From Bacteroidales bacterium (GTDB taxonomy: Bacteria; Bacteroidota; Bacteroidia; Bacteroidales; UBA932), in assembly GCA_017479265.1 (NCBI GenBank), contig JAFVCK010000019.1, positions 1-33,157 of the forward strand: 33,157 nucleotides of DNA, written 5' to 3'. Positions 5,698 through 31,334 of the stretch are shown piece by piece (within the stretch, counting starts at the first letter, position 1; each line of letters begins with the position of its first letter). The position numbers were made by a program, and so were the translations under genes. Under the pieces are notes generated by a model, which worked only from the letters and a program-made list of their open reading frames with translations, was not told the origin of the DNA and did no database searches.

Positions 5698-5736
5698 TCG
5701 AACTAAAAATATCTGGAGCCGAATTTAAACAACTTC

Positions 5737-5768: not shown

Positions 5769-5772
5769 CAAA
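5741..5772 (-). promoter_or_regulatory. divergent promoter for fabG-comF
   Basis: Read on the minus strand, TTTG (5772-5769) and TAAATTTG (5748-5741) are spaced by 20 bases. The element overlaps almost entirely with the forward ahcY promoter, so the two polymerases should exclude each other. The fabG start is about 40 bases downstream. Confidence 0.65.
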
Positions 5773-5794
5773 TAATTATCAATAGAATTCCGAG

Positions 5795-9862: not shown

Positions 9863-9865
9863 GCC

Positions 9866-10339: not shown

Positions 10340-10379
10340 TCGAAGGTGTCAGCTTTGCATGATGCACTGTAACGCTCTT

Positions 10380-15760: not shown

Positions 15761-15776
15761 CGACAGGATACATACG

Positions 15777-16502: not shown

Positions 16503-17237
16503 ATGGCTGATAAAACCTATGTACCTGGAGTAGATGGCTCAGGTCCGTCTATCGACAATTCTTCAAGTCAGGATTTCAGTGAAAGAAGAAATCCGATGGC
16601 CTCACGGAATGGCGGAGGCACTGTGATTCCGGAAGGAAACGGCTCGGAAGAGCGCTCGCATCAACGTTCTGCCGTTACGACAAAAGACAAGCCTGTTCTC
16701 GGTTTCCTGTATTCAGTTTCAAGAAACTCTTTTGGAGAATTCTGGCCTGTATATCTTGGCCCCAACACTATAGGTCGGGGAGGCAATGCTGACATCATAC
16801 TTAGCGAGGGTACCGTTTCGTCCGAGCACGCTACCATCATTGTCCATCAAGAAGATGATGGCGAAGTGTATGCCGGTATCAAAGACAACGGCTCCACACA
16901 CGGAGTAAAGGTAAATGGTAAAAGCACCCATTTCGATGTTGTCGGCTGCAAGAACGGTGACATTGTCAAGATAGGCAAAAGTTATGAGCTTCTCTTTATT
17001 CTTGTAAACGCTTCCGAACTGGGGCTCAAGCCTGCGGAGAACTTCATTGAAGTAAAACAGGCTTCTTCCAAGCAGGTTGACAAGAGGATAATTACCGGTC
17101 CGGCCGGCCCTTCCACGACGTTCAACCACGGCGGTCCGTCATTCCCCAACAATCGTCTTTCCAACCCTTCCAGCGACAGGACTCGCGCCATCGATGGGAA
17201 TACGGACGTTGAGGGCGGAGGAACAAGGACAAGGTAA
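16503..17237 (+). CDS. soluble FHA-domain protein
   Basis: From the ATG at 16503 the product is 244 residues with no membrane segment. A disordered N-terminal part (1-62) contains GGGTVIPEG with Thr40, a candidate phosphosite comparable in position to the N-terminal threonines of GarA/OdhI-type FHA regulators (inference). The FHA domain spans about 66-168: GRGGNADI with R92, SSEHA at 106-110 and NGSTHGVKVNG at 129-139, all expected phosphothreonine-binding elements. The tail is rich in Pro, Ser, Thr and Gly. A longer in-frame start at 16356 lies inside the leader hairpin and is unlikely. It heads the locus and precedes the first kinase by 18 bases. Confidence 0.88.
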   Translation: MADKTYVPGVDGSGPSIDNSSSQDFSERRNPMASRNGGGTVIPEGNGSEERSHQRSAVTTKDKPVLGFLYSVSRNSFGEFWPVYLGPNTIGRGGNADIILSEGTVSSEHATIIVHQEDDGEVYAGIKDNGSTHGVKVNGKSTHFDVVGCKNGDIVKIGKSYELLFILVNASELGLKPAENFIEVKQASSKQVDKRIITGPAGPSTTFNHGGPSFPNNRLSNPSSDRTRAIDGNTDVEGGGTRTR

Positions 17238-17255
17238 TACTGCGAGAGGCCAGGT

Positions 17256-18797
17256 ATGATACTTCAAGGAGAAATAGAGAAACAAAGCCACATTTATTAC
17301 GAGTTTGACCGGTCAAACCGGATTGGTGCCGGCGGTATGGGAACGGTGTATCGCGGCCGCATGGTCGATGAGAGTACCGGAGCATACCGTGAAGTCGCCA
17401 TAAAGGAGGTGCAGCCTGAAGGTGATGCAGCCACAAGGCAACTGGTACTTGACAGGGCCCGCCGCGAAGCCTCCATCTGCTTCCACAATGACAACATCGT
17501 CGAGATGCTCGGGTTCGTGGAGACATCGGAGAAAAAACTCGGCATGGAGAAAACCCGCTATTACATCGTCAGCGAGTTTCTGGACGGGGTGACTTTGGAC
17601 AAGGTACTGGAGGGAGTATGCACTGATTATCAAGGCAACGAGATTCATTTCGCCAGGGATTTGGCTGACAGATACGGCCACGACAGGGAAGCAACGTCGG
17701 AGTATATCATAAAGAATGTACTGTCCGCAATAGTTGCTCTGCATGACAACGGATATCTCCATAGGGACATCGACCCGTCCAACATAATGATAACTTCGGA
17801 CGGCAAGATCAAGTTGATTGATTTTGGTATCGCCAAGAAGCAGGATGCCTTGACAAGCAGTGACGGCATGCAGTCCGAGGAGGGTTCTTTTGTCGGCAAG
17901 GTGGAGTATGCGGCACCTGAACTTGTTTCAGGAAAAGTCTCCATGCAGGACTTCTCGACAGACATCTATGCCATCGGCGTGATGTTCTACAGGTTGTTGA
18001 CCGGACATCTTCCGTTTGAAGGCAACAGGTTCGACATCATCAAGGCCCAAATGTCGAAGAAACCGGACTTGAGCTCCATCAAGTCCAAAAAATTCAGGGC
18101 GATAGTAGGCAAAGCCCTTGCAAAGCAACAGAAACAAAGATATCCGTCTGCCTCTGCAATGAGGGCTGCGCTTGATGGTGGAGAACCCGCCCCTTCCTGG
18201 GTGATTTTTGCCGCTGCCGGAGGAGGAGTCCTCGCCATTGTAATCTTGATAATCGCTCTTCTTGGAAAACGAGAACCACCAATTCCCGATTCCGAGGGAA
18301 GGATTACCAAAGAATTCAATCTGGACAGCCTTACCAGAGTAACGCAGGTTTGGGAAAACGGAGAACTTGTCAGTTCCGATACGGTACGCAGGCAGCCAAT
18401 ACTGCCAAATTCCATCGATATAACCGAATACCTGTCCAAATCTGCCGAGGAACTGTGGAGCATGCTCGGGGAAGACAACCGCAACCCTGCTGTACTGTAT
18501 GCGCTTTCGCAATCTTTCGAAGGCAAGAGGGCCCAGGATGACAAGATGGCCAAACAGTTATGGGATAATGACATAATTCCGAATGAACTTGCCAAGTATC
18601 TGGATGTGTCGGTGATTTCAGAGCCCGATGCACTCAGTACTACCCGTCTGAGGTACATCTTGCTGTGTATGGCGTACGATAATGCCGGTTCTGTAAGCTG
18701 GAAAGATCCGGGATTTGTAGAAGCTCTTGGAAATCAGATTGTTTCGATGAGAGGCAAAGGATACAAACTACCCTCCGGACTTGCCTCCGGAGAATAA
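17256..18797 (+). CDS. membrane-anchored Ser/Thr protein kinase 1
   Basis: The 513-residue protein has a Hanks-type kinase domain (about 14-305): glycine loop GAGGMG (24-29), ATP lysine K50 (VAIKEV), alpha-C glutamate E71, catalytic loop HRDIDPSN (169-176), DFG (189-191) and an APE-like AAPE (219-222). The lysine usually found two residues after the catalytic Asp is an Asp here (D173). A membrane segment follows (about 315-337), then a roughly 175-residue extracytoplasmic domain, probably helical and without PASTA repeats, which may sense a signal. It lies between the FHA gene and kinase 2 (14 bases downstream). Likely targets are the neighbouring FHA proteins (inference). Confidence 0.92.
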   Translation: MILQGEIEKQSHIYYEFDRSNRIGAGGMGTVYRGRMVDESTGAYREVAIKEVQPEGDAATRQLVLDRARREASICFHNDNIVEMLGFVETSEKKLGMEKTRYYIVSEFLDGVTLDKVLEGVCTDYQGNEIHFARDLADRYGHDREATSEYIIKNVLSAIVALHDNGYLHRDIDPSNIMITSDGKIKLIDFGIAKKQDALTSSDGMQSEEGSFVGKVEYAAPELVSGKVSMQDFSTDIYAIGVMFYRLLTGHLPFEGNRFDIIKAQMSKKPDLSSIKSKKFRAIVGKALAKQQKQRYPSASAMRAALDGGEPAPSWVIFAAAGGGVLAIVILIIALLGKREPPIPDSEGRITKEFNLDSLTRVTQVWENGELVSSDTVRRQPILPNSIDITEYLSKSAEELWSMLGEDNRNPAVLYALSQSFEGKRAQDDKMAKQLWDNDIIPNELAKYLDVSVISEPDALSTTRLRYILLCMAYDNAGSVSWKDPGFVEALGNQIVSMRGKGYKLPSGLASGE

Positions 18798-18811
18798 AAT
18801 CTAGGATTACC

Positions 18812-19798
18812 ATGGAAGACGAAGAATTGCCGATCCGATTGTTTGACGACGATCCCAACGTGTATATTTCCGTCTATAACAGAGGATGGAAATGGTATTA
18901 CTACAACCCGGACAATCCAGCCTTGGGAGAAGGGGCCATGGGCAAGGTGTTCCTTGGCTACGACTATGACAGCAACCAGAGGGTGGCTATCAAACAGCTG
19001 TTTGACAAGTACGCCAATGTCAAGTCGGTGCGTGACCGTTCCCGGCTGGAAGCCTCGTTGGCATACAGCCATCCTAATCTGGTGGAGATGCTTGGCAGTT
19101 GCATGTATGAGGATGAGGAAGGATTCTGGCATGTCTGGGTGTTGAGCAATTTCGTAGATGGAGTCAACATCGATAAATACGTGAATGGTCTTGGAGAAAA
19201 TATAGACAGGGTACACGTAGTTACCGCTCTCATAGGCGATGTTCTGAACGCTCTTGATTATCTGCATTCCAAAGGAGTTATCCATAGGGATATCAAGCCG
19301 TCCAACATAATGGTTGACAAAGAAGGCAGGGTAAAACTCATGGACCTCGGAATCGCCAGGGTTACAAGTGCCAATTCCTATACTTCCACAGGATTCGTAG
19401 GTACCCCTTTGTACGCATCTCCGGAGCAGATAATGAGAGACAAGATGCAGGTCCAGGCAACTCCTGCCAGTGATATTTACTCTCTGGGCATGACGCTCTA
19501 TGTGCTGATTAACGGCGACCATCCATTCGATGCCGATACCGAGGCCCAGATACTTGTAAATCAGGTGACCAAGAAGCTTCCTGTTGCCAAACCCCTTGAA
19601 AAGAAGTATCGCAAACTGATGAATGTCATCTGGAAGGCAACGGACAAGGACCCGGGAAACCGCTATCAGAAAGCCTTGGATTTCAAATATGCCATGGAGA
19701 AGGCCCTTGAGCCGGACCCTGTACCTTGGTGGTACTGGCTGCTTGGTGCAGTGGGCTTCGCCCTCATTGTCGCAATTATAACATTGATACTCATATAG
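18812..19798 (+). CDS. tail-anchored Ser/Thr protein kinase 2
   Basis: The 328-residue kinase differs from kinase 1 in lacking a periplasmic domain. It has an acidic, aromatic N-terminus (1-35), glycine loop GEGAMG (39-44), K61, E80, HRDIKPSN (158-165), DLG in place of DFG (178-180), and GTPLYASPE (197-205). The protein ends in a single membrane helix (about 305-327), so it is a tail-anchored cytoplasmic kinase. The canonical catalytic loop suggests it is active. It is followed 3 bases after its stop by the phosphatase gene, so kinase and phosphatase are likely translated together and counteract each other. Confidence 0.92.
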   Translation: MEDEELPIRLFDDDPNVYISVYNRGWKWYYYNPDNPALGEGAMGKVFLGYDYDSNQRVAIKQLFDKYANVKSVRDRSRLEASLAYSHPNLVEMLGSCMYEDEEGFWHVWVLSNFVDGVNIDKYVNGLGENIDRVHVVTALIGDVLNALDYLHSKGVIHRDIKPSNIMVDKEGRVKLMDLGIARVTSANSYTSTGFVGTPLYASPEQIMRDKMQVQATPASDIYSLGMTLYVLINGDHPFDADTEAQILVNQVTKKLPVAKPLEKKYRKLMNVIWKATDKDPGNRYQKALDFKYAMEKALEPDPVPWWYWLLGAVGFALIVAIITLILI

Positions 19799-19801
19799 AA
19801 T

Positions 19802-20818
19802 ATGGCCAACGATATAGAATCATTCGGAATTGAGAATTCCCTTTTTCCCAACAATACCGTAAGCTGCATAGGGGGACGCGAGGAAAACCAGGATTCCACA
19901 ACCATTCTGGAAACCCGGCGAGGCTTGCTTGTGCTTGTATGTGACGGCATGGGCGGCATGGCCGGCGGTGCAACTGCATCTGCTACGGCGGTCAATGTCA
20001 TTTCCGAGTATGTAAGTCGTCCGGAGAGTGAAGATGACATTGATGATGATAACAGGATGACCCTCATAAAAGCAATATCCGAAGCCAATTCGAGATTGCT
20101 TCAGATGGAAGCGGAAGAACCCGCTCTCAGCGGCATGGGAACAACCGTGACAGCATTGCTTATCAACGAAGAAAAGGCTACCGTGGCCTATGTGGGGGAC
20201 AGCCGCATCTATCAGATACGTCGTGGCCGGAAAGTCTTCAGGACTTTTGACCATTCGATGGTCTTCGAGATGGTCAGGAAAAAGATAATTACCGAAGAGC
20301 AGGCCCGGCTGTCCGCCCAGTCCAACATTATCCTGCGCGCCTTGGGCCAGAAACCGGAAATTGAGGTTGATGCCTTTGACCTGCCGTATGACAAGGGCGA
20401 CCTGTTCCTGCTTTGTTCGGATGGCATCTGGGGAACTCTTCCCGAAAAGGAATTGCTCCGGAGGCTGTCCACCGGCAAGCATCCCAAGGTGTTGACCGAA
20501 ACTCTTGCAATGAACATACATAATGATGCCATCCGTTCCGGAGGAGGACATGACAACCTCACCGCGGCAATGGTAAGAACTACAAAAGACTCAAAACTTA
20601 GAACCAAAATGGAAGATAAAATCAAAATAGCGTTGCTGTCAAGCCTCGTACTGCTTTTGGTTAGCATAACCTGCAACATAGTACTTGGTTATAAACTGAA
20701 CAAGTCTGCTGCAAAGGTTGTTCAATTGCAGGAACAAATCGACAAAATCCAGAATCCTCAGCAGGAGGCGCAGCCTTCAGATGCGGATGCGGCAAATGAA
20801 GAAAACAAAGCCCAATAG
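19802..20818 (+). CDS. membrane-anchored PP2C-type protein phosphatase
   Basis: The 338-residue protein has a PP2C catalytic domain (about 17-260) that removes phosphate from Ser/Thr. Metal-binding residues are D31 in ENQD, D48-G49 in CDGMGG, D207 in CSDGIW and D251 in GHDN; MGTTVTALLI (112-121) and VGDSRIY (131-137) are further family motifs. After the domain come one membrane helix (about 275-297), a short coiled-coil (300-318) and an acidic Gln/Asp/Glu-rich tail. Its C-terminus faces the periplasm if the catalytic part is cytoplasmic. The next FHA gene starts 2 bases after the stop. Confidence 0.93.
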   Translation: MANDIESFGIENSLFPNNTVSCIGGREENQDSTTILETRRGLLVLVCDGMGGMAGGATASATAVNVISEYVSRPESEDDIDDDNRMTLIKAISEANSRLLQMEAEEPALSGMGTTVTALLINEEKATVAYVGDSRIYQIRRGRKVFRTFDHSMVFEMVRKKIITEEQARLSAQSNIILRALGQKPEIEVDAFDLPYDKGDLFLLCSDGIWGTLPEKELLRRLSTGKHPKVLTETLAMNIHNDAIRSGGGHDNLTAAMVRTTKDSKLRTKMEDKIKIALLSSLVLLLVSITCNIVLGYKLNKSAAKVVQLQEQIDKIQNPQQEAQPSDADAANEENKAQ

Positions 20819-20820
20819 AT

Positions 20821-21669
20821 ATGAAAAGTTATACAATCGGCAGGGAGGAGAGTTGCAATATCATCGTCTCCGACCCGACACAGATGGTCAGCCGCAACCA
20901 TGCGACTCTAAACGTTGACGGAAACAAAATGACCATTGTTGACACCAGTTCCAATGGTACGTATATCAATGGCATCCGAATACAATCGGGGACTCCTGTT
21001 CCGGTCACCCGCAAGGATGTCGTATCTTTTGCGCAGGTAGCGGAGTTGGATTGGAAAGTTGTTCCTAAGGAAGGAGGCAAAAACGTCTTGGTGATTTTAG
21101 GTGTTATCGCGGCTGTATTGCTTGCGGGAGGCGGAGCATGGTATTTCCTTAACCGCGAAAAGCACGAGGATAAAAATAAAACGGGCGAAAATGAGGTTGA
21201 GCAGATGTGGAAAGACCTTGGTGTCAAGGTTGATACGCTAAAGTCTGCCGTGCCCGGATTGATAGCCGATATCAAGGCTGCCGGTGACAGCCTGGCTGCA
21301 GTTCAGGAACTGCTCGATAACAAGAATACAGCTGCCAAGAAAGATGCGAAAATCGCCGAAAACGTAAAGAAATCCCTTTGGCAGGCTGAAGACAAGTTGA
21401 AGAGTGTCAATGCTGAAGAACTGCAAAAATCGCTTGAAAGCGTAATTCAGAGTATAGGAGACAAGTCTGAGGCAACCCGGACGAGGGTGTCTGAACTGGA
21501 GAAGAAGGTCGCTGACGGCAAATCCGTTATAGCAGCAGTGAATTCTCTCCTGAATACCGCAAAGGGTGAAATTGCAACTCTTCCGGATCAAAAAGGTAAG
21601 GCAAAGCCAAAGCCCGAGCCGAGCAAAGATGCAAAAGAGGAACCAGTAAATAGAGTGATAAACATATAA
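20821..21669 (+). CDS. FHA-TM-coiled-coil protein
   Basis: The 282-residue protein starts with an FHA domain (1-82) keeping all key elements: IGREES with R8, MVSRNHA (22-28) and SSNGTYING (43-51). It ends with ELDWKVVP, a motif shared with other FHA domains in this locus. A membrane helix (about 88-110) follows, then a predicted periplasmic region (115-250) rich in Lys, Glu, Ala and Leu with heptad-like spacing, and a Lys/Pro-rich tail. It therefore looks like a phosphothreonine reader in the cytoplasm joined through the inner membrane to a periplasmic coiled-coil. It is directly downstream of the phosphatase. Confidence 0.87.
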   Translation: MKSYTIGREESCNIIVSDPTQMVSRNHATLNVDGNKMTIVDTSSNGTYINGIRIQSGTPVPVTRKDVVSFAQVAELDWKVVPKEGGKNVLVILGVIAAVLLAGGGAWYFLNREKHEDKNKTGENEVEQMWKDLGVKVDTLKSAVPGLIADIKAAGDSLAAVQELLDNKNTAAKKDAKIAENVKKSLWQAEDKLKSVNAEELQKSLESVIQSIGDKSEATRTRVSELEKKVADGKSVIAAVNSLLNTAKGEIATLPDQKGKAKPKPEPSKDAKEEPVNRVINI

Positions 21670-21681
21670 CAAGAATTTGCC

Positions 21682-23226
21682 ATGAGACTTATTTCCATAG
21701 GAAAATCCCCTTCCTGCACGATTTGCATACCCAACGAGTATGTGAGTTCATATCATGCTGAAATCGTACTTCTTGACAACGGTGACATATTCTTGACCGA
21801 CTGCAACAGCAAGAACGGAACTTTTCTCAACGGACAGAGGATAAATCCAAACGTTGAAGTCCCCGTACGCCGTGGTGATAAAATTGAGTTCGATACGGTG
21901 GCTCTCAACTGGGGAAGCGTACCTCAGATTCCTGTTCCCGACCCGTCCAAGGTCAAGGGCGTCTATGGCATAGGAAAAAGCCAGAGAAACCGCTATAACC
22001 TCAGCGGTGACAGCGTCAGCCGCTATCATGCCACTCTCAAGGAGATGAAAAACGGCAAATGGTTCATTCAAGACCATAGCAAGAACGGAACGTTCATAAA
22101 CGGGAACAGAATCCCTGCCAACCAGGACGTGCAGATTAAAAAGAGCGACAGCATAGTCTGCGGCAACATTCCTTGTCCCAATCCTGTTCAAGGTTCCGCA
22201 GTCCCCGGTTGGGTATGGGCGCTTGTCGGAGGCATGGCGGCTGCCATTCTGCTTGTAATATGTTTGCTTAAAATCTGGCCTGTCGGACACAATACCGACC
22301 CGTACAAGGCGACAGTGCTTGTCAGCCAGACTTATAGAATCAAAATCAAATTTGCGGATGACCCCGTAAAGGACCTGCTTGGTATCGACAATTGGTATTT
22401 TGCTGGCAATGACAGACCCCTTGCGACCTCATCAAGCGATGCATCGGTACTATATCATACAGGAACGGCATTCTTCATTTCCGAAAACGGACTTCTGCTT
22501 ACTAATAAACATGTTACCAACTGGATATATGCAGATGAGCATTATACCGGAGGAGCCATGAGCAAGGATATGAAGACTATGGCTGAATTGACTCGTCAAT
22601 TATACTATGAAGCATTCACGACCAAATACAAACTTACTACTGAGCAGCAGTTAGCCTTCGACCGCTGGCTCAAGTCTCCTTTCTCGCTTGAGATTGATTC
22701 TATTGGATTTGGTATCAGGTATTCAGGGAGAACATATTCTTCCACTTCCGAGATGGATTGGGCTCATCTTGTCAAGGAATCTTCCGATAACGAGGCTGAT
22801 GTCGCTATTATAAGGCTTAATTCAAGAAAGACTCCATCCGAATGTGACTGGTTCGACCTTAAGCGTTCTCTCAAGATTTCCGACCTTAAAAGGGATGCAA
22901 ACTATTATACTCTTGGTTTCCCTGCCGGAGAGTTGCTCGCTACAGCCCTGAATAAAGATAAATATGAGCCGACATCCGGTATTCTGCATCTTGTACAGTC
23001 GCCCTCAAAATATACTCTGTTCTTCATGGGTGACGAATCGATAGGAGGACAGAGCGGCTCGCCTATTTATGACAAGAAGCATCGTCTCTGCGGAGTCCTT
23101 TACGGAGGATTCTCCGTCAATAATTCAACAAACGCTTGTCCCATAAGTCACGCTATAAGCCTTGTAGAAGAAGTTATGGAGGACGATGCAACCGAACAAT
23201 CATTCAAATCAAGCAATGCATATTAG
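21682..23226 (+). CDS. FHA-FHA-TM-trypsin-like serine protease
   Basis: The 514-residue protein combines two N-terminal FHA domains (about 1-80 and 92-165), a membrane helix (175-197) and a C-terminal S1-type protease. In the FHA domains SSYHAE and NSKNGTFLNG, then SRYHA and HSKNGTFING, are clear, but the usual GR arginine is Lys in both (IGKSPS, IGKSQR). The protease triad is H277 (LLTNKHV), D373 (EADVAIIRL) and S458 (GGQSGSP). The predicted topology is cytoplasmic FHA domains with a periplasmic protease, so phosphorylation inside the cell could set proteolysis outside it. A 100-residue insertion between His and Asp is unusual. The WG gene overlaps its end by 11 bases. Confidence 0.9.
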   Translation: MRLISIGKSPSCTICIPNEYVSSYHAEIVLLDNGDIFLTDCNSKNGTFLNGQRINPNVEVPVRRGDKIEFDTVALNWGSVPQIPVPDPSKVKGVYGIGKSQRNRYNLSGDSVSRYHATLKEMKNGKWFIQDHSKNGTFINGNRIPANQDVQIKKSDSIVCGNIPCPNPVQGSAVPGWVWALVGGMAAAILLVICLLKIWPVGHNTDPYKATVLVSQTYRIKIKFADDPVKDLLGIDNWYFAGNDRPLATSSSDASVLYHTGTAFFISENGLLLTNKHVTNWIYADEHYTGGAMSKDMKTMAELTRQLYYEAFTTKYKLTTEQQLAFDRWLKSPFSLEIDSIGFGIRYSGRTYSSTSEMDWAHLVKESSDNEADVAIIRLNSRKTPSECDWFDLKRSLKISDLKRDANYYTLGFPAGELLATALNKDKYEPTSGILHLVQSPSKYTLFFMGDESIGGQSGSPIYDKKHRLCGVLYGGFSVNNSTNACPISHAISLVEEVMEDDATEQSFKSSNAY

Positions 23227-24799
23227 AAAGACAGTTACATCAATCATCCTGACCTGCCTCGCCATCTGCGCAAACGCGCAGGTGGCAAGGTGGGTTATTG
23301 CCCCGGAATACACATCGATAGAGCCGATATCTTCCAATATGTTGAGGGTCGGCTTGAACGGTGGTTACGGATTGATAGACTACTCGGGCAACATCATAAT
23401 TTCACCACAGGCTGAACGGATTACGGACATGGCGGAGGGCATAAGCCTTGTGCTGGCCGGAGAAAGGCTGCTTGGGCTGGTGTTTGAAGATGGGCATTGG
23501 GAGAAGATGCAGGCGGAAACATACATAGATCCTGCATACCCATATTTTTCGGACGGTTTGCTGGCGGTCCGCAATGCCGGAGGGAAATGGACCCTGATGG
23601 ACAGGAACCGCAAGGTGCTGTTCAATCCGAAATATAAATACATAGGAGCATTCGTATGCAACGGAGCCCGGGCAATTTTCAAAAATGGAGCTGCCGTACA
23701 TATAGACAGGAACGGAACAGTAAAGAAACTCGGCAATGGATTCACTACCAACGAGATGGTGTTTTCATCTTCCTTTACAAGGATGGGTTCCAATATCGGC
23801 GCCTTAGTGGTAGATTCAGGTAACAATGTGAGTCTAAGGGATTTGAACGGGGTCCGTTCTAACGTGGACTTCGGCATTTTGACATCCTTTGACAAGAATG
23901 CCAGAATAATGAAGACCACCCGATATAGAAGTATCGAGTTTGCTGAGAACTGGCAGATTCTGCGTCTGACAGACAATGCCGGGAAGGTTACAAAGTTCGA
24001 AACGACATCCCCCAAGCGCTACGAAGTTGCGGGTACAGGCCTGACCTCGTCGAACCGTGTCGGAGGATACAATGTAATATCCAAGGGCAAGGTGATTCTC
24101 CAGCCTCAGTTCGATGCCGCGATTGTCACGCTGTCTCCAACCATGGCTATTGCGGAGATTAACGGAAGAGTGGGAGTGTTGGAAGTTATTCCCGGATACA
24201 ATCCGGAGATAAACTTCCCTGAGGAGGCCATAGTATTCCGCCACCATGTCCTGGTTGAGGTAATAGGCAATCTGGCCATACCTTCTTCTTTGACATACAG
24301 GGACTATTCCGTGAGCATAAGCGGCGGCAACACTACTCTGTTCGAGGGCTCTCCCCGAGGCGGCCAGGCCATTATACCGTTCCTTCCTTCAACCATTTCC
24401 GACAGTGGGGAACTTGACTGTGCGGTTGAGATGACAATATCGGGATTGAAATATCCGAAGTCATCAGGGACAATCAGATGGAAGTTTGAAAATGCGTTCT
24501 CTGTCTCTGCTCCAGGAAAGGTGAAACTGAATAAGTCCAACACCGCAGCCAGTTTCAGCGTTACCATCAAGAATGATTCAGATGTTGCAAGCGATGAATG
24601 TGACATCTTTGTAGATGGAGTGGCCCTCCAGCGCGGGGTAGTATTCGAAGGTGGCGAAAGTAAGAGTTTTACAGTTACCAAGAAGATTGACATTGAGGAC
24701 CTTGACAGCGTCACCCGTACCATCGGCATACAGGTCCGCGAAACAGGATGTCCTATTTATAAAGCAAGCAGACGAATTACATTTGACAGGTCATTTTAA
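23216..24799 (+). CDS. secreted WG-repeat protein with Ig-like C-terminus
   Basis: The ATG at 23216 gives 527 residues with a signal peptide ending ICANAQ; an in-frame ATG 30 bases earlier would mask it. Residues 30-340 hold degenerate WG-type beta repeats, for example GLNGGYGLIDYSGNIIISPQ, GGKWTLMDRNRKVLFNPKY and INGRVGVLEV. The C-terminal 140 residues look like a beta-sandwich with SFSVTIKNDSDVASDE and KSFTVTKKI strands. It overlaps the protease gene by 11 bases, so the two are translationally coupled. It is a plausible partner or ligand-binding component for the periplasmic part of the system. No enzyme motif was seen. Confidence 0.75.
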   Translation: MHIRKTVTSIILTCLAICANAQVARWVIAPEYTSIEPISSNMLRVGLNGGYGLIDYSGNIIISPQAERITDMAEGISLVLAGERLLGLVFEDGHWEKMQAETYIDPAYPYFSDGLLAVRNAGGKWTLMDRNRKVLFNPKYKYIGAFVCNGARAIFKNGAAVHIDRNGTVKKLGNGFTTNEMVFSSSFTRMGSNIGALVVDSGNNVSLRDLNGVRSNVDFGILTSFDKNARIMKTTRYRSIEFAENWQILRLTDNAGKVTKFETTSPKRYEVAGTGLTSSNRVGGYNVISKGKVILQPQFDAAIVTLSPTMAIAEINGRVGVLEVIPGYNPEINFPEEAIVFRHHVLVEVIGNLAIPSSLTYRDYSVSISGGNTTLFEGSPRGGQAIIPFLPSTISDSGELDCAVEMTISGLKYPKSSGTIRWKFENAFSVSAPGKVKLNKSNTAASFSVTIKNDSDVASDECDIFVDGVALQRGVVFEGGESKSFTVTKKIDIEDLDSVTRTIGIQVRETGCPIYKASRRITFDRSF

Positions 24800-24817
24800 T
24801 TAAACGTAATAAAACGA

Positions 24818-25513
24818 ATGAAAACAAAACTCTTATCGGCATTGATTCTATGCTGTCTGACGGCGACAGGATTGAATGCGCAGACTTTTTGGGATGACTC
24901 CGAGCCCCAAAGGGCCACCTCCAACAGCGACGAAGGTAAAGTGTGTCTGCGGTTAGGCATCACAGGATGCGCCGTTATGTCGGGACTATCTTCGTCTGTC
25001 TATCCGTCTTTTGGCATTCGTCCCGGCATTGGCATAGGAGCAGCCTTTCAGATAAGGTTTCTTTCCAGGGATGAACTGAGTACGGCTCAGACAGGTCTTC
25101 TTGCTTTCCAGCCGGAGGTCCGGTTCGATATGGCAGGAGGCAATTCCTCGGAAGGTAAACTTGGACTCTTCTATGTGACCATGCCTCTTATGTTTCAGGT
25201 TTATCCGATAAAAGGTCTGTATATTGAAGCAGGTCCTACGCTGGCGCTCAATGTCGGTCATACGCCTTCAAGTGTCCTTGCGGCAGGTTACGAATTCTCT
25301 CTGGACCGGATGCGTGCCAATGATATCCAGGTTTCGGCCGGTCTGGGGTATGCTTTCGATAACGGATTGGCTGTAGGAGCAAGGTTCAACAAGGGATTCC
25401 AGAGCCTTGCAGGCAATATGCCATGGAAAAACTGGAACCTTCAGATAGGCGTGACATATACCTTCAAGTTAGGTATGAAAAACGTCTCCGGCAAAGAGGA
25501 CATCTTTTATTAG
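24818..25513 (+). CDS. outer-membrane beta-barrel protein (PorT-like)
   Basis: The 231-residue protein has a signal peptide (MKTKLLSALILCCLTATGLNAQ), a short acidic linker and alternating amphipathic strands with many Gly and aromatic residues: KVCLRLGITG, SFGIRPGIGIGAAFQIRF, LAFQPEVRFDMAGG, FYVTMPLMFQVYPI, LYIEAGPTLALNVG, IQVSAGLGYAFDNGLAVGAR and LQIGVTYTFKLG. This is the pattern of the OMP_b-brl_2/PorT-type 8-stranded barrels of Bacteroidota. It places an outer-membrane component within the FHA/kinase locus. PorT itself belongs to the type IX secretion system, but no other such genes are here, so a specific name is not warranted. Confidence 0.8.
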   Translation: MKTKLLSALILCCLTATGLNAQTFWDDSEPQRATSNSDEGKVCLRLGITGCAVMSGLSSSVYPSFGIRPGIGIGAAFQIRFLSRDELSTAQTGLLAFQPEVRFDMAGGNSSEGKLGLFYVTMPLMFQVYPIKGLYIEAGPTLALNVGHTPSSVLAAGYEFSLDRMRANDIQVSAGLGYAFDNGLAVGARFNKGFQSLAGNMPWKNWNLQIGVTYTFKLGMKNVSGKEDIFY

Positions 25514-25528
25514 TAAGAGGACCATGCG

Positions 25529-26947
25529 ATGAGAAACAAATTATTCGGTATCGCCGCCTTGATGATACTGGCCGGCGCTTGCAGCAATCCCTCGGTTGAG
25601 GTTAAAAGGAACGTCGAAATATCCATTCGCCTGTCAACAGTACTTTCCGGGTTCGTTCCGTACGCTTCCGATAATCTGGATATGTATAGCGATTCTGACG
25701 GTAGCTCAAAGGTCAGAGTGTCATGCTATATGTATGACAAAGAAGGGCATTTGACTGACAGTCATGAACTTATGGCAGATAATTTTTCTGCTGAAATCAA
25801 TCTGACGGAGACCGTCCCTGATGATTATTCAACTTTTGTTATTCTGGCTTCTTGCATACAAGGGTCGCTTGACAGTCCGATATACGAAGCATATACCATT
25901 TCCGGAATTCAGTCTTTGGGAACATTGGAAATTACTCAACAAAGCGAGAAAACCTATAGCTCCTCATTGTCCGTCCTTGGTTATGCTGTCGTTGACTTTG
26001 ATTCAAGCAATCAATCAGTCAATATTGATGTAAAGCCGGCGACAGCATTGGTATATTTGAATTGGCGCGACATACATTCACATGATAACGACGGGGCATC
26101 GGACGGGGAGATTTATGGTTATTATTCCGCCAAAGCAACAGATTACTGGGAAAAGAAAACGTATAACTGGACCATGAGCGTGGAGCCGGGAGCAAGCTCG
26201 GACGCTGTCGTTCTGAAAGAATTCGAACCTGCGCTTTTTGATGCCGAATTGTTCTCCGACAAAGGATACAACACCTACAACGGCTCAATCTCAAGCTCGA
26301 CTCTTACCATTCCGATGAGGCAGAAAACAGGTTTCTCCGATGATGACGGGGACGTGTTGCTCATGGGAGGTACGGCAGATGGTGAATATATCACTTTCGA
26401 GGATATCAAGCTTTCAATAGGAGCCGGAACCCTTACAACGGAGAACATGTTCGGCATTACGGTGCCGAATTCGAACAGCGGATGGTATTCGTTGTTCAAT
26501 CCCGGAGTGGTATATACTAAAACAGGCGGGGCCGGCGGAATAGACAAGTATTATATCATTTATCATAATAACGACAAATTGGATTTGGCTGAAGGACGAT
26601 TGTCAACGGCAACTTCACTTAGTTCCAATGAAAACAACGCAGGACTCTTGCAACCGGCAGACTATCCGTCATCTACAAAGAATGTTTATACGATGGTCAA
26701 TTTCCTGCCCGGCACCTTCAATGTGTACGGACGGTCTTACGTCGGGAACACCAATACCGATTATAACAGGATGAGTTTTACCGCTGAAGCCGGTCATCAG
26801 TACGTAATAGCCTTCGACTGCAATTCCTTGTCGTTGTATTCTTATGAAGGTGCGCTTGGCTCCAAGGCCGCAGATGATGAATTTATCCCGACAAAACCCG
26901 TAAAAACCAGCCTTTTGGTAAAACACCTGATACCGATTGGGAAATAG
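25529..26947 (+). CDS. lipoprotein, beta-rich, possibly fimbrillin-like
   Basis: The 472-residue product has a lipoprotein signal (AALMILAGAC, lipidated Cys18) and a long beta-strand-rich, Ser/Thr/Asp/Tyr-rich body with few Lys and no catalytic motif. The segment VSCYMYDKEGHLTDSHEL and the later VILASCIQ resemble the N-terminal strands of FimB/Mfa2-like fimbrillin proteins, but the match is weak. It follows the PorT-like barrel by 15 bases and overlaps the S41 protease gene by 11 bases. The codon use is more AT-rich than in the genes before 16 kb. It is likely a surface or periplasmic structural component of the locus. Confidence 0.7.
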   Translation: MRNKLFGIAALMILAGACSNPSVEVKRNVEISIRLSTVLSGFVPYASDNLDMYSDSDGSSKVRVSCYMYDKEGHLTDSHELMADNFSAEINLTETVPDDYSTFVILASCIQGSLDSPIYEAYTISGIQSLGTLEITQQSEKTYSSSLSVLGYAVVDFDSSNQSVNIDVKPATALVYLNWRDIHSHDNDGASDGEIYGYYSAKATDYWEKKTYNWTMSVEPGASSDAVVLKEFEPALFDAELFSDKGYNTYNGSISSSTLTIPMRQKTGFSDDDGDVLLMGGTADGEYITFEDIKLSIGAGTLTTENMFGITVPNSNSGWYSLFNPGVVYTKTGGAGGIDKYYIIYHNNDKLDLAEGRLSTATSLSSNENNAGLLQPADYPSSTKNVYTMVNFLPGTFNVYGRSYVGNTNTDYNRMSFTAEAGHQYVIAFDCNSLSLYSYEGALGSKAADDEFIPTKPVKTSLLVKHLIPIGK

Positions 26948-27926
26948 GTATGTCATAATAGGTTTCGCCTTCCTTCTTGCTGTTTTCGGATGCGAGAAGG
27001 AGGTAAACCTTGATGACAGGATAACGATAATCCAGGGTGATTCCGATGCCGCAGACATTGCTAAAATGAATGGATGGATATACAGCCGGATGAAAGATGT
27101 ATATTTCTGGTCGGACGAGTTGAAAGATTCTTTGGAATATGATTATTCTCTCGCTCCCGACAAGTTTTTTGCGAGTCTCAAGGTTGCTGCGGACAGGTTC
27201 TCTTACAGTGAGCCGAACAGTTCATATTCGGGCGGGACAAAGGGCGTCAATCTCAATGATTCCGTCAAGTTGGATAGCATATACAGTATTGGAGGAAAAC
27301 GCATCGGGTACTTTTATTATACAGGATTCGATACAGAAGCAGACGTGACAGATGTAATTCTCAAGATGAAAGGTGTCGATGAACTGATAATAGATGTGCG
27401 TTCCAATCCGGGCGGATATGTCCATACTTGTACATATCTGGCTTCACTTCTGGTGCCAACCTCATGTTTGGGCAAGCTTTTCTACTCGGCATCCTACAAT
27501 TCAAGACTTGGCGAATTCTATAAATCAACCACAGGGAGTGAACGGACATACACATATCTGCTGGACAATACCCTCGTTCGCAACCGTTCATTGTGCTTGA
27601 AGAGGCTCTGGATATTGGCAGGCTCCGGAAGTGCTTCATGCAGTGAGTTGTTAGTCAACAGCTTGCGTCCGTATATGCAGGTCATCGCAATTGGAGAAAC
27701 CACGGTCGGGAAGGATGTGGGTATGTCACCGCTGGAAAACAGCCGTTGCAAATATAGATTCTGGCCGATCACTTTCAGAAATTACAACGCGCACGGCAAC
27801 CCCGTTCCTATGACAGGGCTGGTCCCGGACTATCCTGTGGGAGACACTGCACCAGCTATGTTGGGCGACATCCGTGAACCTCTTCTTGCCAAAGCTTTGG
27901 AAGAAATAAACAAAATACAAGAATAA
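26937..27926 (+). CDS. S41-type protease lipoprotein (no PDZ domain)
   Basis: The 329-residue protein is an S41 (tail-specific) peptidase. The C-terminal core has IGYFYYTGF (123-131), LIIDVRSNPGG (150-160), the nucleophile region GSGSASCSE (229-237, Ser234 likely) and GETTVGKD with general-base K259. The N-terminus carries a lipobox LAVFGC (Cys19), followed by the charged EKEVNLDDR. No PDZ domain is visible between 40 and 110. The only workable start is TTG at 26937, 11 bases inside the previous gene; the nearby ATG is in another frame and stops at once. It adds a second protease to the locus, tethered to a membrane in the periplasm or at the surface. Confidence 0.85.
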   Translation: MGNRYVIIGFAFLLAVFGCEKEVNLDDRITIIQGDSDAADIAKMNGWIYSRMKDVYFWSDELKDSLEYDYSLAPDKFFASLKVAADRFSYSEPNSSYSGGTKGVNLNDSVKLDSIYSIGGKRIGYFYYTGFDTEADVTDVILKMKGVDELIIDVRSNPGGYVHTCTYLASLLVPTSCLGKLFYSASYNSRLGEFYKSTTGSERTYTYLLDNTLVRNRSLCLKRLWILAGSGSASCSELLVNSLRPYMQVIAIGETTVGKDVGMSPLENSRCKYRFWPITFRNYNAHGNPVPMTGLVPDYPVGDTAPAMLGDIREPLLAKALEEINKIQE

Positions 27927-29260
27927 TGAAAACGCTAAAATTACTCAGTTTGTTGGCATCCGTTCTGATATCCGGAGCCATCTATGCGCAAGACCAGACT
28001 ATTACCATGAAGGACGGTACAGTCTATGAAGGTTACATCAGCAATCAGGACTACCGTACAGGGAAGGGGCGTATTTCCTATTCCAGGATGACCAGGACCA
28101 TCCCCGTCAGTGACATCCAGAGTCGTACGGCCGAGCGCAGGAACCTTGATACCTTCTCACCTGCGTGGCAATCATGGGCAGAGGAAAACAACAAGGTGGA
28201 ATTCGAAGGCAAGGACAAGAAATACCTGTCCATCACCAGGATGGCTATCAAGAACCAGCCGGTCAGAGACTACTATGTCCTGGTCAGCGGTTCCAAGTAT
28301 TACACGGTTTTTACCATATCTGACGGGGTCGATGATTGCGTAATGTCCGATATCGCGAGCATACGCAAAAAGGAAAGGGAAAACACATTGCTTACAGATG
28401 TCGATGACATAGTACAGACTGATGGTTCCACTTTTACCGGTGTTATCCTGGAGCAGATCCCGGGTAAGTCTTTTACCGTTTGGAACAAGGCCGACAAGTC
28501 CGTTCACCATATCGATTATGGGGAGGTGCGTTCTATAGGCAAGGCACGTTTCAACAATGACTACAGCATTTGGAAACAGACTCCTTATCTGGACAAAATA
28601 ACATTGAAGAACCGTACGACAGGCAAGGGTCTCATAGTAGAAAACGGTTTTGGCGAGGATATCAATATTTTGTTCGCCGACAAGGCCGGTGACGGAATGG
28701 ATGTCCGCCAGTATCATTACGCTGATATCCTTTCGGTCGAGAGGTTTCGCAATCCTGACTTCGAGGCAATATACGACATAGTCCTGGATGAGGGTGAAAG
28801 CCGTATTGGCCGTGACAGCGTGCTGGTGTTCGCCGATATAAAGACACTTGAAAGGAAAGATGCCAAACTGTTCTATCTTGACCCCGGTAAGCTCAGTGAC
28901 ATAGCACCTGTAAAGGAGAAGGATATAGTTATCGAGACTAATACTGACGGGATTGCCGATATCTATATTGCGAAGGCCGTGACTATGGCGAAAGTTCCTG
29001 TTTCAGTCATTTCGACTGATAAAAAATCTCAGCCGGATTCCAAGGCCAAGAAAAACAAGAAAAAGGGTGCAGAGCCGGAGGAGACTGTTGATTTGCTTAC
29101 TTATTCGTACCAGACTTTGTTTGAATCGAATGTGGACTATACCTGCGAAACCAGCATCAACGGTACTACGAAAATAACTTTCACATTGCCTGAAGAAGGC
29201 GTATGGTTCGTCTTCCTGAGAAAGGTTGGGAAGTGCTGGGTGATATCCTATAAAAAGTAG
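27926..29260 (+). CDS. secreted protein with repeated KDG/DGS beta motif
   Basis: The 444-residue protein has a signal peptide (cleavage likely after AIYA) and at least three related segments of about 45 residues: 25-66 (ITMKDGTVYEGYIS, then IPVSDI), 162-205 (VQTDGSTFTGVILEQIPGK, then IDYGEVRSIGK) and 224-273 (ITLKNRTTGKGLIVEN, then YHYADILSVERF). This resembles the common Bacteroidota motif of the type LKNGS-x-x-x-G-x-I-x-EQ-P followed by EVxxI. A Lys-rich linker (residues 364-385) precedes a small C-terminal beta domain. The start shares one base with the previous stop. The function is unknown, and the next gene carries one copy of the same motif. Confidence 0.7.
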   Translation: MKTLKLLSLLASVLISGAIYAQDQTITMKDGTVYEGYISNQDYRTGKGRISYSRMTRTIPVSDIQSRTAERRNLDTFSPAWQSWAEENNKVEFEGKDKKYLSITRMAIKNQPVRDYYVLVSGSKYYTVFTISDGVDDCVMSDIASIRKKERENTLLTDVDDIVQTDGSTFTGVILEQIPGKSFTVWNKADKSVHHIDYGEVRSIGKARFNNDYSIWKQTPYLDKITLKNRTTGKGLIVENGFGEDINILFADKAGDGMDVRQYHYADILSVERFRNPDFEAIYDIVLDEGESRIGRDSVLVFADIKTLERKDAKLFYLDPGKLSDIAPVKEKDIVIETNTDGIADIYIAKAVTMAKVPVSVISTDKKSQPDSKAKKNKKKGAEPEETVDLLTYSYQTLFESNVDYTCETSINGTTKITFTLPEEGVWFVFLRKVGKCWVISYKK

Positions 29261-29266
29261 TTGTCT

Positions 29267-30121
29267 ATGAAAAAACTTATCCTGTTTGTTACTTTCGTCC
29301 TCGCATTTGCCGCCGGCATGGACGCGCAGGACATAATCACGAAATACGATGGCTCCGAAATCAAGTCTAAAGTATTGGAAATCAGCGAGACCACTGTTAA
29401 ATACAAAAAGTGGGAGAACCTCAGCGGCCCGACATACACAATAAAGGTATCGGACATAGTGATGATTCGCTATGAAAATGGCACCAATGAAGTTTTTGCT
29501 GGCAAGTCCGAGTCCTCTGGCAATGTCACTACGGATAGCGGTAACAATTCTGCTGACGATTTCTTCTTCAGCAACGACAATACATCCGTGAATAATGTAA
29601 ACTTAGGTACGTCAGAGTATTTCGCCCTCGACCCGTCGCTTTTGAGAGAGGGGCTAAAATACAAAGATATTAAAGACAATTATAACAAGAAGGATTACAA
29701 AAAACTGAGGAACCCGGCATTCGGTACGGGCAGGGCGGCCCTCAATCTGCTTGCCCCTGGAATCGCCCAGTTTACGATGAATGAACCGGGGCTGGGGCTC
29801 AGATATCTATTGTTGGGAGAGGGCGGTTTCCTTCTTTGGGGTGTCGGAACTGTTTTAGGTGTAAATTTTGGTGGTGGCGCTTTTGCTGTTATGATGCTCA
29901 CAGGTTTGACTATGGGTATAACCTTTGAGGTCTTATCCATTACAAATGCCGTCAAAATGGCTAAAGTCAAAAGTCTGTATGCAGACGACATGACCCATTG
30001 GAACCAGTCAGGGCCCTCGTATTTCGACTTTGATTTCTCGCTTGTCCCGACCTTGAATGTCGCACCTACGCCAAGCGGAATGCACATAGCCCCCGGACTT
30101 GGATTGAGGCTTACATTCTAA
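29267..30121 (+). CDS. secreted/membrane protein with one DGS beta motif
   Basis: The 284-residue product from the ATG at 29267 has a signal peptide (MKKLILFVTFVLAFAAGMDAQ); a TTG at 29261 is a weaker start. Residues 22-77 carry one motif of the kind repeated in the upstream gene (DGSEIKSKVLEISETTV, then VSDIVMIRYENGT). A Ser/Asn/Asp-rich linker follows, then a hydrophobic region (about 160-235) with GLRYLLLGEGGFLLWGVGTV and FAVMMLTGLTMGITFEVLSI, which may be membrane helices. The C-terminus PGLGLRLTF looks like a last beta-strand of an outer-membrane protein. It is placed 6 bases after the upstream stop. The function is unknown. Confidence 0.68.
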   Translation: MKKLILFVTFVLAFAAGMDAQDIITKYDGSEIKSKVLEISETTVKYKKWENLSGPTYTIKVSDIVMIRYENGTNEVFAGKSESSGNVTTDSGNNSADDFFFSNDNTSVNNVNLGTSEYFALDPSLLREGLKYKDIKDNYNKKDYKKLRNPAFGTGRAALNLLAPGIAQFTMNEPGLGLRYLLLGEGGFLLWGVGTVLGVNFGGGAFAVMMLTGLTMGITFEVLSITNAVKMAKVKSLYADDMTHWNQSGPSYFDFDFSLVPTLNVAPTPSGMHIAPGLGLRLTF

Positions 30122-30127
30122 TTATGA

Positions 30128-30141
30128 TTATCTTAAGATAA
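30128..30141. promoter_or_regulatory. 14-bp perfect palindrome
   Basis: TTATCTTAAGATAA is a perfect palindrome in the 24-base gap between the DGS-motif gene and the FHA-DUF805 gene, 4 bases before the latter's ATG. It could be an operator, or nothing more than AT-rich spacer. Confidence 0.3.
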
Positions 30142-30145
30142 ATAT

Positions 30146-30787
30146 ATGAAAACTATCAGAATAGGCCGAAATAACGATAATGATATCGTGGTTTCCTCGG
30201 ATCGCGTAAGCCGGTATCACGCAGACATTATTGTTGATGCGGGAAGAGTAACCATCGTGGACCACAGCGCGAATGGAATGCTGGTAAACGGAGTGAGCCT
30301 GAACAATTCTTCCTGCATTGTTCAGATAGGTGATCCTGTGTTCCTTCCTGGTTATATCCCATTGGACTGGCAAGCCGTAAAACGCCTGGCACTTTCAGAC
30401 CTCGGAAATGAGGGAGAGAATAATGTCCGTCCTGTTCCGGTAGGGATTCAGCAGGATGAGGCCCCCGCAATGGGATTTGGCGAGACTCTGGCTTATTTCT
30501 TTGACCATTATACTGATTTTTCAGGTCGGGCAAGACGAACGGAGTATTGGTATATGTGCATCTGGTCATTGATATTTTCGCCTTTCTGGTTTATATGGGC
30601 GGTAGTTGCTTTTATCCCCATGCTGGCGCTTACGGTAAGAAGATTGCATGACAGCGGCTATTCCGGTCTGTATCTGCTGCTCAATCTGACAGTGGTAGGC
30701 AGTTTGGTAGTATTTGTTTTCACCGTATTGGACTCTGAAAGAGGAGCCAACAAATGGGGACAATCTCCTAAATACCCAAACGGTTGA
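30146..30787 (+). CDS. FHA-DUF805 fusion protein
   Basis: The 213-residue protein fuses an N-terminal FHA domain (1-80; IGRNND with R8, RVSRYHA at 20-26, HSANGMLVNG at 40-49) to a C-terminal DUF805 membrane domain (about 110-213). DUF805 marks are FFDHYTDFSGRARRTEYW, RRLHDSGYSG and the closing DSERGANKWGQSPK. About three membrane helices are visible (138-150, 152-164, 175-195). The FHA domain ends PLDWQAV, like the LDW endings of other FHA domains here. The FHA side must be cytoplasmic to read phosphothreonine. It is probably another membrane-bound reader of the two kinases. Confidence 0.86.
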   Translation: MKTIRIGRNNDNDIVVSSDRVSRYHADIIVDAGRVTIVDHSANGMLVNGVSLNNSSCIVQIGDPVFLPGYIPLDWQAVKRLALSDLGNEGENNVRPVPVGIQQDEAPAMGFGETLAYFFDHYTDFSGRARRTEYWYMCIWSLIFSPFWFIWAVVAFIPMLALTVRRLHDSGYSGLYLLLNLTVVGSLVVFVFTVLDSERGANKWGQSPKYPNG

Positions 30788-30800
30788 AAATAGTAATCCG

Positions 30801-31334
30801 ATGTCATCCCAATCAAATAACGACAAAGGCTCATCCCGGCCTGCCATCAACACCATTCTTCTCGGCGTTATAGCCATCGGCGTGCTTATCCTGCTGTTCA
30901 GGGGCAAGTCCTGCTCTTCCGGCAATGAAACTCCTTCAGTGAAACAGGGAAATGATTCCCAAATAGAGCTGGTGTGTCCGGAATGTTACGGGACCGGAAA
31001 AACAGCGTTGGCCGAGGACATAATGGCATCGCAGTATTTCAGTTCGTGTTCGCTGTGCGGTGGAAAGGGAAAAGTCAGCAAGTCACTTTTTGATTGGTGG
31101 GTTGGCATGCATCCGTCTTCTGGCGGAGGCGGCAAATCCGTTGGGAGGGGCAAGTCAGGCAATCAACGCGAGTGCTACGACTGCTATGGAAGAGGCAAAT
31201 GCAATATGTGTGCGGGCCGTGGTCATAGGGAGCATTATAATTCATATTCAGGCGAGTACGTACACTATGACTGTTCCGCATGCAATGGCAGGGGCATCTG
31301 CCTTACATGCCATGGACGCGGCTATCTGCGTTGA
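30801..31334 (+). CDS. membrane-anchored CxxCxGxG zinc-ribbon protein
   Basis: The ATG at 30801 gives 177 residues; an earlier in-frame ATG at 30714 would overlap the FHA-DUF805 gene by 74 bases and is not favoured. A membrane anchor (about 15-33, INTILLGVIAIGVLILLF) is followed by DnaJ-like cysteine modules: CPECYGTGK, CSLCGGKGK, CYDCYGRGKCNMCAGRGH and CSACNGRGICLTCHGRGY, making about six CxxCxGxG units that should bind zinc. There is no J domain. Such modules act in protein binding or redox chaperoning. It closes the FHA/kinase locus, and a second protein with the same modules lies at 32638-32976 on the minus strand. Confidence 0.82.
   Translation: MSSQSNNDKGSSRPAINTILLGVIAIGVLILLFRGKSCSSGNETPSVKQGNDSQIELVCPECYGTGKTALAEDIMASQYFSSCSLCGGKGKVSKSLFDWWVGMHPSSGGGGKSVGRGKSGNQRECYDCYGRGKCNMCAGRGHREHYNSYSGEYVHYDCSACNGRGICLTCHGRGYLR

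Follow-up and report, generated by a model that had tools for sequence, protein, structure and literature searches.

The closest described systems are the threonine phosphorylation pathway of the type VI secretion system (T6SS) in Pseudomonadota (PpkA, PppA, Fha and TagQRST), whose PpkA/PppA/Fha logic is set out in the available part of a review (PMC10482370); the Bacteroidota T6SS(iii) with its TssNQOPR complex; and the kinase-kinase-phosphatase (KKP) system of Pf prophages, defined in the available part of its description by a PP2C-kinase-kinase order with a cold-shock domain (PMC11341870). According to the available sections of Bongiovanni et al. 2024 (PMC10781749), TssN and TssP each occur in nearly all Bacteroidota T6SSs, every Bacteroidota T6SS has the TssNQOPR complex, whole or in part, and a search for genomes that keep a complete membrane complex while lacking every other T6SS gene found none. 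Here we describe a locus of FHA, kinase, PP2C, protease and envelope genes, the module, at 16503-31334 of contig JAFVCK010000019.1 (assembly GCA_017479265.1) from a Bacteroidales bacterium. The window, i.e. the whole stretch of DNA analyzed, is this entire contig of 33,157 nucleotides (G000:C33), which belongs to a 2.04 Mb, 77-contig, 89%-complete metagenome-assembled genome (MAG), G000.

Our reading, to which we assign a probability of about 0.6, is that the locus encodes a phosphothreonine-switched envelope module, resembling the PpkA/PppA/Fha pathway of the T6SS and also occurring free-standing. Its grounds are the conservation and order of the genes, their linkage to a T6SS operon in three relatives and their catalytic motifs, together with a modelled topology. 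The genes of the core, with Pfam matches and transmembrane (TM) helices, are as follows.

16503-17237, + strand: FHA1, a soluble FHA protein (FHA, 8e-11)
17256-18797, + strand: K1, a Ser/Thr kinase with one TM helix (316-334) and a predicted periplasmic part of ~179 residues (Pkinase, 8e-41)
18812-19798, + strand: K2, a Ser/Thr kinase with a C-terminal TM anchor (310-328; Pkinase, 4e-44)
19802-20818, + strand: PP2C phosphatase with one TM helix and a short predicted periplasmic tail (PP2C_2, 2e-15)
20821-21669, + strand: FHA/coil, an FHA domain, a TM helix (89-107) and a periplasmic region (FHA, 1e-17)
21682-23226, + strand: FHA-FHA-TM-trypsin-like protease (two FHA, 3e-37; Trypsin_2, 2e-08)
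23186-24799, + strand: WG-repeat exported protein, likely start near 23219 (WG_beta_rep, 5e-18)
24818-25513, + strand: outer-membrane beta-barrel protein (OMP; OMP_b-brl_2, 1e-09)
25529-26947, + strand: lipoprotein (LP) with a possible fimbrillin/Mfa2-like fold (lipobox flagged by the scan)
26937-27926, + strand: S41 peptidase (Peptidase_S41, 2e-18; Pept_S41_N, 7e-13)
27926-29260, + strand: DGS1, an exported protein built of small repeating beta units and ending in an Ig-like C-terminal part (signal-peptide-like start)

Comparison with the Pseudomonadota pathway shows that both contain a membrane Ser/Thr kinase, a PP2C and an FHA protein, and in three relatives the module lies physically within a T6SS operon. 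It differs in having two types of kinase, a membrane-bound PP2C, the FHA-FHA-TM-protease and the WG, OMP, LP, S41 and DGS1 partners, and in being free-standing in five of ten loci; the T6SS link is not seen in the window genome. TagR is an FGE-type protein, and Pfam found no TagQRST-type ABC or FGE domains in 20 window proteins. The LP may have a fold like that of FimB/Mfa2-type fimbrial lipoproteins, but has no Pfam match above cut-off, and no fimbrial operon surrounds it.

No published description of FHA/kinase/PP2C genes with a Bacteroidota T6SS was found in the open-licence literature searched; one that we have not seen may exist. The words kinase, FHA, forkhead, phosphatase and phosphorylation are absent from PMC4714493, on genetic architecture; in the text available, no word beginning with Bacteroid occurs in PMC10482370, on T6SS regulation, and none beginning with phosphorylation, FHA or kinase in PMC10781749. 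As far as this literature goes, the module would be the first kinase/phosphatase/FHA control described for a Bacteroidota T6SS. It would also offer a clear design, the inside-out control of a periplasmic protease.

The initial annotation of the window had listed 14 forward genes with named domains, tightly packed and in part overlapping. All 14 open reading frames were confirmed on one strand at 16503-31334, in agreement with Pfam, and intergenic distances computed by hand run from -11 to +24 bases with the preferred starts of the WG gene (~23219) and of a zinc-ribbon gene at the 3' end (~30801); with the mechanical starts, these two overlap their upstream neighbours by 41 and 74 bases, respectively. 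It had also tied the kinases, the phosphatase and three FHA proteins to the inner membrane, which agrees with a hydropathy scan predicting one TM helix each in K1, K2, PP2C, FHA/coil and the FHA/FHA/protease, and two in an FHA-DUF805 protein. The same scan found no N-terminal hydrophobic segment in the first five; with a single TM helix, their FHA, kinase and phosphatase domains would therefore be cytosolic, and their C-terminal parts periplasmic. Both of the Ser/Thr kinases and all five of the FHA domains found in the G000 MAG are at this locus, and chance grouping is excluded because the gene order recurs in other families.

The kinase and PP2C catalytic motifs are complete in the window. 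K2 contains VAIK, HRDIKPSN and DLG, with HRD[IV]KPSN present in 7 of 9 loci scanned. In K1, HRDIDPSN replaces the usual HRDxKxxN, and this unusual Lys-to-Asp change (HRD[IL]DP[ST]N) is found in all nine K1 copies of the eight loci scanned and in the K1 of G293. The metal-site motifs of PP2C are DGMGG and GGHDN; DGMGG is present in 9/9 loci, as is the DN motif (GGHDN or GKHDN in six, EYDN in G529, G932 and G960). PP2C scored 199 bits against NCBIfam Stp1, under the 230-bit cut-off, and a lipobox flagged inside it by the scan is surely accidental. The trypsin-like catalytic domain is predicted to be periplasmic; its His277, Asp373 and Ser458 are invariant in six of six aligned sequences, the window included, and the His/Asp/Ser triad motifs were present in 9/9 loci scanned. 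The start of FHA1 at 16503 is backed by alignment with relatives, and its N-terminal tail carries the Thr motifs TYVP (residue 5) and TVIP (residue 40). T-x-[VI]-P occurs twice in the tails of 7/8 proteins scanned and once in that of G370. The S-x-x-H signature is kept by the second FHA domain of the protease, FHA/coil and FHA-DUF805, and the periplasmic region of FHA/coil looks coiled, judging from weak coiled-coil family matches in the Pfam scan.

Among the envelope proteins, the hydropathy scan gave the WG protein a signal-peptide-like N terminus beginning near 23219, and the N terminus of the OMP reads by eye as a signal peptide that the scan did not flag. The S41 product has Ser and Lys motifs and, by eye, a lipobox-like AVFGC at its N terminus. 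The structure model of the LP was poor overall, with fold matches led by Bacteroidales fimbrillin-like adhesins. DGS1 matched no Pfam family above cut-off; its predicted fold has a pLDDT of 79, and the fold comparison was filled by the C-terminal Ig-like end, with modest Z.

For the targets and wiring of phosphorylation, the FHA partners, the protease substrate, the output and any anchoring role, we infer the following scheme. K1 and K2, in the inner membrane, and the inner-membrane PP2C would set the level of threonine phosphorylation, K1 with its periplasmic part being the likely sensor. The phosphosites would most likely be threonines of the FHA1 tail, with T-x-[VI]-P as the best candidates. 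FHA proteins of the membrane, chiefly FHA/coil and the FHA-FHA-TM-protease, would gather phosphorylated FHA1, and a cytosolic signal could pass across the membrane to the trypsin-like protease and a stalk. These may act on the WG protein, the barrel, the lipoprotein and DGS1, so that the likely output is a cytosol-controlled periplasmic protease. Since no T6SS was found in the window organism, the targets of the module there are most likely its own envelope partners.

KKP likewise has two kinases and a PP2C as adjacent genes, and the kinases of the module score with the PADLOC models PD-T4-6 and MAD6, which would fit an anti-phage or conflict system of the KKP kind or related to it. However, these matches cover the kinase domain alone, the order is K-K-PP2C and not PP2C-K-K, and the Pfam scan found no cold-shock domain. 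The module moreover has membrane anchors, and its protease, outer-membrane and lipoprotein partners are absent from the available text of the KKP description (PMC11341870). We consider a role of this kind very unlikely. A defence system in general was rejected as well, PADLOC on 10 window proteins having returned nothing beyond matches at the level of single domains (kinase, PP2C, protease) and a weak coiled one.

To place the module among relatives, ten module loci from three families were compared (G000, G370, G111, G293, G529, G932, G960, G971, G840 and G819). The core FHA1-K1-K2-PP2C-FHA/coil-FHA/FHA/TM/protease-WG-(OMP-LP-S41)-DGS1 recurs in these ten genomes, with some genes missing or moved. 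A search with the FHA/FHA/protease matched 23 of 198 genomes of the order, mostly through FHA or protease parts, and near-full-length only in the window and G111. Within the family, 25 of 199 genomes matched: G370 (60%, full length), G242 (32%, in another type of locus), G293 (a part at a contig end) and otherwise partial matches. A profile of the protease (A7) matched 18 of 201 genomes of the family of G529 at E 1e-15, with strong full-length matches in G529, G932, G960, G971, G840 and G819, and 5 of 395 genomes of the class, strongly only in G000 and G529. G974, G529, G932, G960, G840 and G819 have a genus label in common.

The order in G370 is FHA1-K1-K2-PP2C-FHA/coil-FHA/FHA/protease-WG-OMP-LP-S41-DGS1. 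G111 shows the same order without S41, its LP being recognised by position and a 25% alignment, and G840 and G819 have FHA1-K1-K2-PP2C-FHA/coil-FHA/FHA/protease-WG-DGS1. G971 retains K2 through S41, both ends being contig ends, and the module of G293 is split over two contigs. The WG, OMP and LP genes keep their position in several relatives: WG lies right after the protease gene in the window, G370, G111, G932, G971, G840 and G819 (after K1 in G529 and G960), and the OMP gene is in place in G370, G111, G932 and G971. The S41 gene is also present in G370 and G971.

Strong matches to DGS1 (E < 1e-10) were obtained in 3/199 genomes of the family (G000, G370, G293), 2/198 of the order (G000, G111) and 2/395 of the class (G000, G529), and in each of these five genomes DGS1 belongs to a kinase/FHA locus. 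Weak, short matches (E 1.5e-5 to 7e-4) occurred in 11 genomes, one in the family search, one in the order search and nine in the class search; the two stretches inspected, in G208 and G183, contained no module genes. Because strong DGS1 matches always sit in kinase/FHA loci and several envelope genes keep their place, comparison of the sequences indicates that the locus is one system, not two neighbours. Two unrelated adjoining gene groups, kinase/FHA and envelope, would fit three accessory genes (DGS2, FHA-DUF805 and the zinc-ribbon protein) that are not conserved with the rest; however, across three families WG and DGS1 are kept together with the kinase/FHA genes, and no strong DGS1 match lies elsewhere in the genomes searched, so that this explanation is hardly credible. 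The conserved order across families thus bears out the proposal of the initial annotation that the kinase/FHA and envelope genes form one trans-envelope signalling module. Envelope genes usually lying away from kinase/FHA genes, which it had named as the sign of two neighbours, were not what we found for DGS1, the only envelope gene searched genome-wide. The co-occurrence that it had suggested looking for is conserved for the kinases with the FHA-FHA-TM-protease and not for FHA-DUF805, which was not found in the related loci.

In G529, G932 and G960, which are near-complete and closely related drafts, the module makes up the 5' half of a T6SS operon on the same strand. In G932, FHA1-K1-K2-PP2C-FHA/coil-FHA/FHA/protease-WG-OMP-LP-DGS1 runs straight into the T6SS half, K1'-WG'-ClpV-TssB-TssC-Hcp-VgrG-PAAR/toxin-101-M23-308-TssK-176-TssF-PG-binding-zinc ribbon-188-kinase-K1-WG, where PG is peptidoglycan. 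At the 3' end lie genes for a zinc-ribbon protein that looks FHA-like by eye, for a kinase whose tail is FHA-like (E 0.0065 for the FhaB model in G529), for a third K1 and for a WG protein. The T6SS half is the same in G529 and G960; there the first K1, first WG, OMP and LP are missing, and DGS1-K1-WG precedes ClpV. Pfam matches in G529 were a ClpB-type AAA, TssC (2e-130), two TssD/Hcp (TssD, 2e-29), VgrG domains and a DUF4280 with a toxin domain. NCBIfam gave TssK 54 bits (cut-off 100) and TssF 17 bits (cut-off 260), both below the curated cut-offs. TssB owes its name solely to its resemblance to the gene that precedes TssC in G265, and the other names in the T6SS half are by position. TssC, recognised in G932 and G960 by homology, is 86 to 98% identical among the three genomes (aligned pieces); these loci are close relatives and therefore not independent cases. 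That the locus matches no T6SS-like system, as first annotated, remains true of the window, but in these three related genomes the module is contiguous with a T6SS operon. This context suggests that the module controls or anchors cell-envelope machines. In the one Bacteroidaceae-type clade where it is built into the operon, it probably controls the T6SS and may anchor it.

The module could instead serve general envelope-stress or cell-surface signalling, with the T6SS of one clade as a later arrival next to it that does no more than share its transcript. It stands alone, with both flanks visible, in five of the ten loci (G000, G370, G111, G840, G819), where a search for 19 T6SS proteins found none except for one weak AAA match in G840 (11 genes in the control, G932). 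The T6SS-linked loci are one close clade, and the possible fimbrillin/Mfa2-like fold of the LP and the exported proteases suggest surface remodelling. However, kinases, K1 copies and WG genes flank the tail genes on both sides, on one strand, in all three operons, which points to more than adjacency, and the T6SSs of G529, G932 and G960 are without TssN. We regard this explanation as unlikely, while giving it real weight.

TssN (PF17555) was sought in 14 genomes. It was detected in G265 and G840 (~1e-83); the remaining 12 gave no match, among them G000 and the T6SS-linked G529, G932 and G960. G840 thus has a free module and, elsewhere in its genome, a canonical T6SS gene. TssR (PF20782) matched 6/30 genomes at E 0.001 (four of them over cut-off), namely G265, which also has TssC, and G293, G114, G084 (partial), G171 and G016 (both below cut-off), in which TssC was not found. 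No TssR was found in G000 or in G529, the one T6SS-linked genome of the three that was searched for it genome-wide. TssC was found in 2/30 genomes, G265 and G529, a search that did not include G932, G960, G840 and G819. The T6SS half of G529 thus matches Pfam TssC and TssD as T6SS(iii) does, but differs in that G529, G932 and G960 lack TssN genome-wide, G529 lacks TssR, and the operon contains the kinase/FHA/envelope module; in the window genome, TssC, TssN and TssR were not found.

A doubtful extension of our reading is that the module is a free phosphothreonine-gated trans-envelope platform, adopted by a T6SS tail instead of TssNQOPR, so that Bacteroidota would have a second type of T6SS membrane anchor. 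Copies standing alone, that of the window included, would then represent the state before docking or the state left once the tail was lost, and would have their own output via the protease. With three T6SSs that carry the module and no detectable TssN, alongside free copies, the origin of T6SS anchoring becomes testable.

Several observations weigh against the phosphothreonine-switched, T6SS-related module that we favour. Only three of the ten module loci adjoin a T6SS, and as they form one clade (100% support), the linkage could be a single historical accident. TssC (PF17541) was not found in G000, G370, G111 or G293, which are 85 to 91% complete MAGs (99 to 100% for G529, G932 and G960). No counterparts of TssO, TssP or TssQ were found within the loci when these were searched with the three genes that precede TssR in G265 and are assigned to those names by position. 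A TM scan of the T6SS half found no multi-helix membrane protein except the PG-binding protein, whose two or three hydrophobic segments, as predicted, make it a possible other T6SS anchor. In G293, no kinase lies between FHA1 and PP2C, and its FHA1 tail, as aligned, lacks T-x-[VI]-P. The usual FHA signature is STNG; FHA1 of the window has STHG and its relatives mostly ST/SK-x-G variants, STNG being kept only in G111. The DFG pattern of K1 was unmatched in G840, which reads DYG, and G819; the K2 of G840 deviates (HMDIKPAN), as do some kinase patterns in G840 and G819.

Two of the TssR matches come from the surroundings of FHA or kinase genes. L167 (G293) encodes a TssR_VWA-like protein at 4203-6617, three genes after the module K1 and followed by ABC transporter, FtsX-like and BACON genes, and L191 (G114) encodes another at 8253-10679, ~9 kb from the nearest FHA gene. 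Such genes near FHA/kinase genes without TssC hint that TssR-type proteins may work outside the T6SS.

For the ten module loci, FHA1, PP2C, FHA/FHA/protease, K2 and FHA/coil were concatenated, and the resulting tree was rooted with five loci of a second type. The three T6SS-linked modules join with 100% support and G293 branches next (95%, from few sites and on a long branch); the window pairs with G370, and the next backbone node has 45%. The tree fits both a single gain of the T6SS link and an old link with several losses, which cannot be told apart.

The second locus type consists of an FHA/FHA/TM/protease, an FHA1-like protein, PP2C, a kinase(-FHA) and then a kinase usually of 1170-1280 residues. 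It was found in nine loci, those of G242, G265, G350, G830, G849 and G974 (L083) together with L081, L082 and L085, and supplied the five outgroup loci. The G350 locus, on a short contig, lacks the long kinase, and that of G849 is cut by a contig end. Stretches carrying this type are L069 (G265), L066, L081, L082, L083, L085 and L220 (G830:C47). Of two long kinases whose C-terminal part was scanned, that of L066 matched no family and that of L069 matched DUF2963; in L069, one kinase is also fused to DUF805 and an FGE domain.

A universal locus type was rejected, since many other FHA/kinase/PP2C loci of the order share domains, and not gene order, with the window; they include FHA-ABC transporter, kinase-DUF805-FGE, BACON and MORN kinds. 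Proteins of ~950 residues with tandem FHA domains precede an ABC transporter in L048 (14130-17045), L050 (12702-15569) and L047 (15681-18524), two of these loci lying beside kinase and PP2C genes. Scanning identified three FHA domains in L048, and tandem FHA domains in L047 and L050 are suggested by length and FHA matches. We liken these proteins to the mycobacterial FHA-ABC transporter Rv1747. In L192 (7527-17129; G236, a genus-mate of the window) and L194 (3897-9515; G111), a kinase and a zinc-ribbon protein resemble the 3' end of the T6SS operon; FHA and PP2C genes adjoin, and there was no T6SS protein among the matches listed.

The remaining genes of the window locus are accessory or a possible extension.

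29261-30121, + strand: DGS2, an accessory protein, exported or in the membrane, found in the window alone
30146-30787, + strand: FHA-DUF805 membrane protein, accessory (DUF805, 8e-19; FHA, 2e-14)
30714-31334, + strand: TM protein with a DnaJ-like zinc ribbon, accessory, likely start near 30801 (DnaJ_CXXCXGXG, 31.2 bits; cut-off 32.7)
15422-16157, + strand: TM2 and DUF2752 small membrane proteins, a possible extension of the locus (Pfam TM2, DUF2752)

DGS2 matched no Pfam family, and tblastn found neither DGS2 nor the zinc-ribbon gene in related loci. The DUF805 part of FHA-DUF805 likewise had no tblastn match in module relatives, its only match being the kinase fusion in the second-type locus of G265; FHA-DUF805 was rejected as a core gene because it was not found in related loci. 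Neither the TM2 nor the DUF2752 gene was found in module relatives. Three other genomes of the family have a DUF2752 gene, which lies within an FHA/kinase locus in two of them (L074, L076) and next to an FHA gene in the third (L078). A plasmid origin was rejected, as 16503-20818 had no near match among 72,556 plasmids. Facing the locus from the contig end, 32638-32976 on the - strand encodes another small exported protein whose zinc-ribbon pattern, of the DnaJ type and under the Pfam cut-off, resembles that of 30714-31334.

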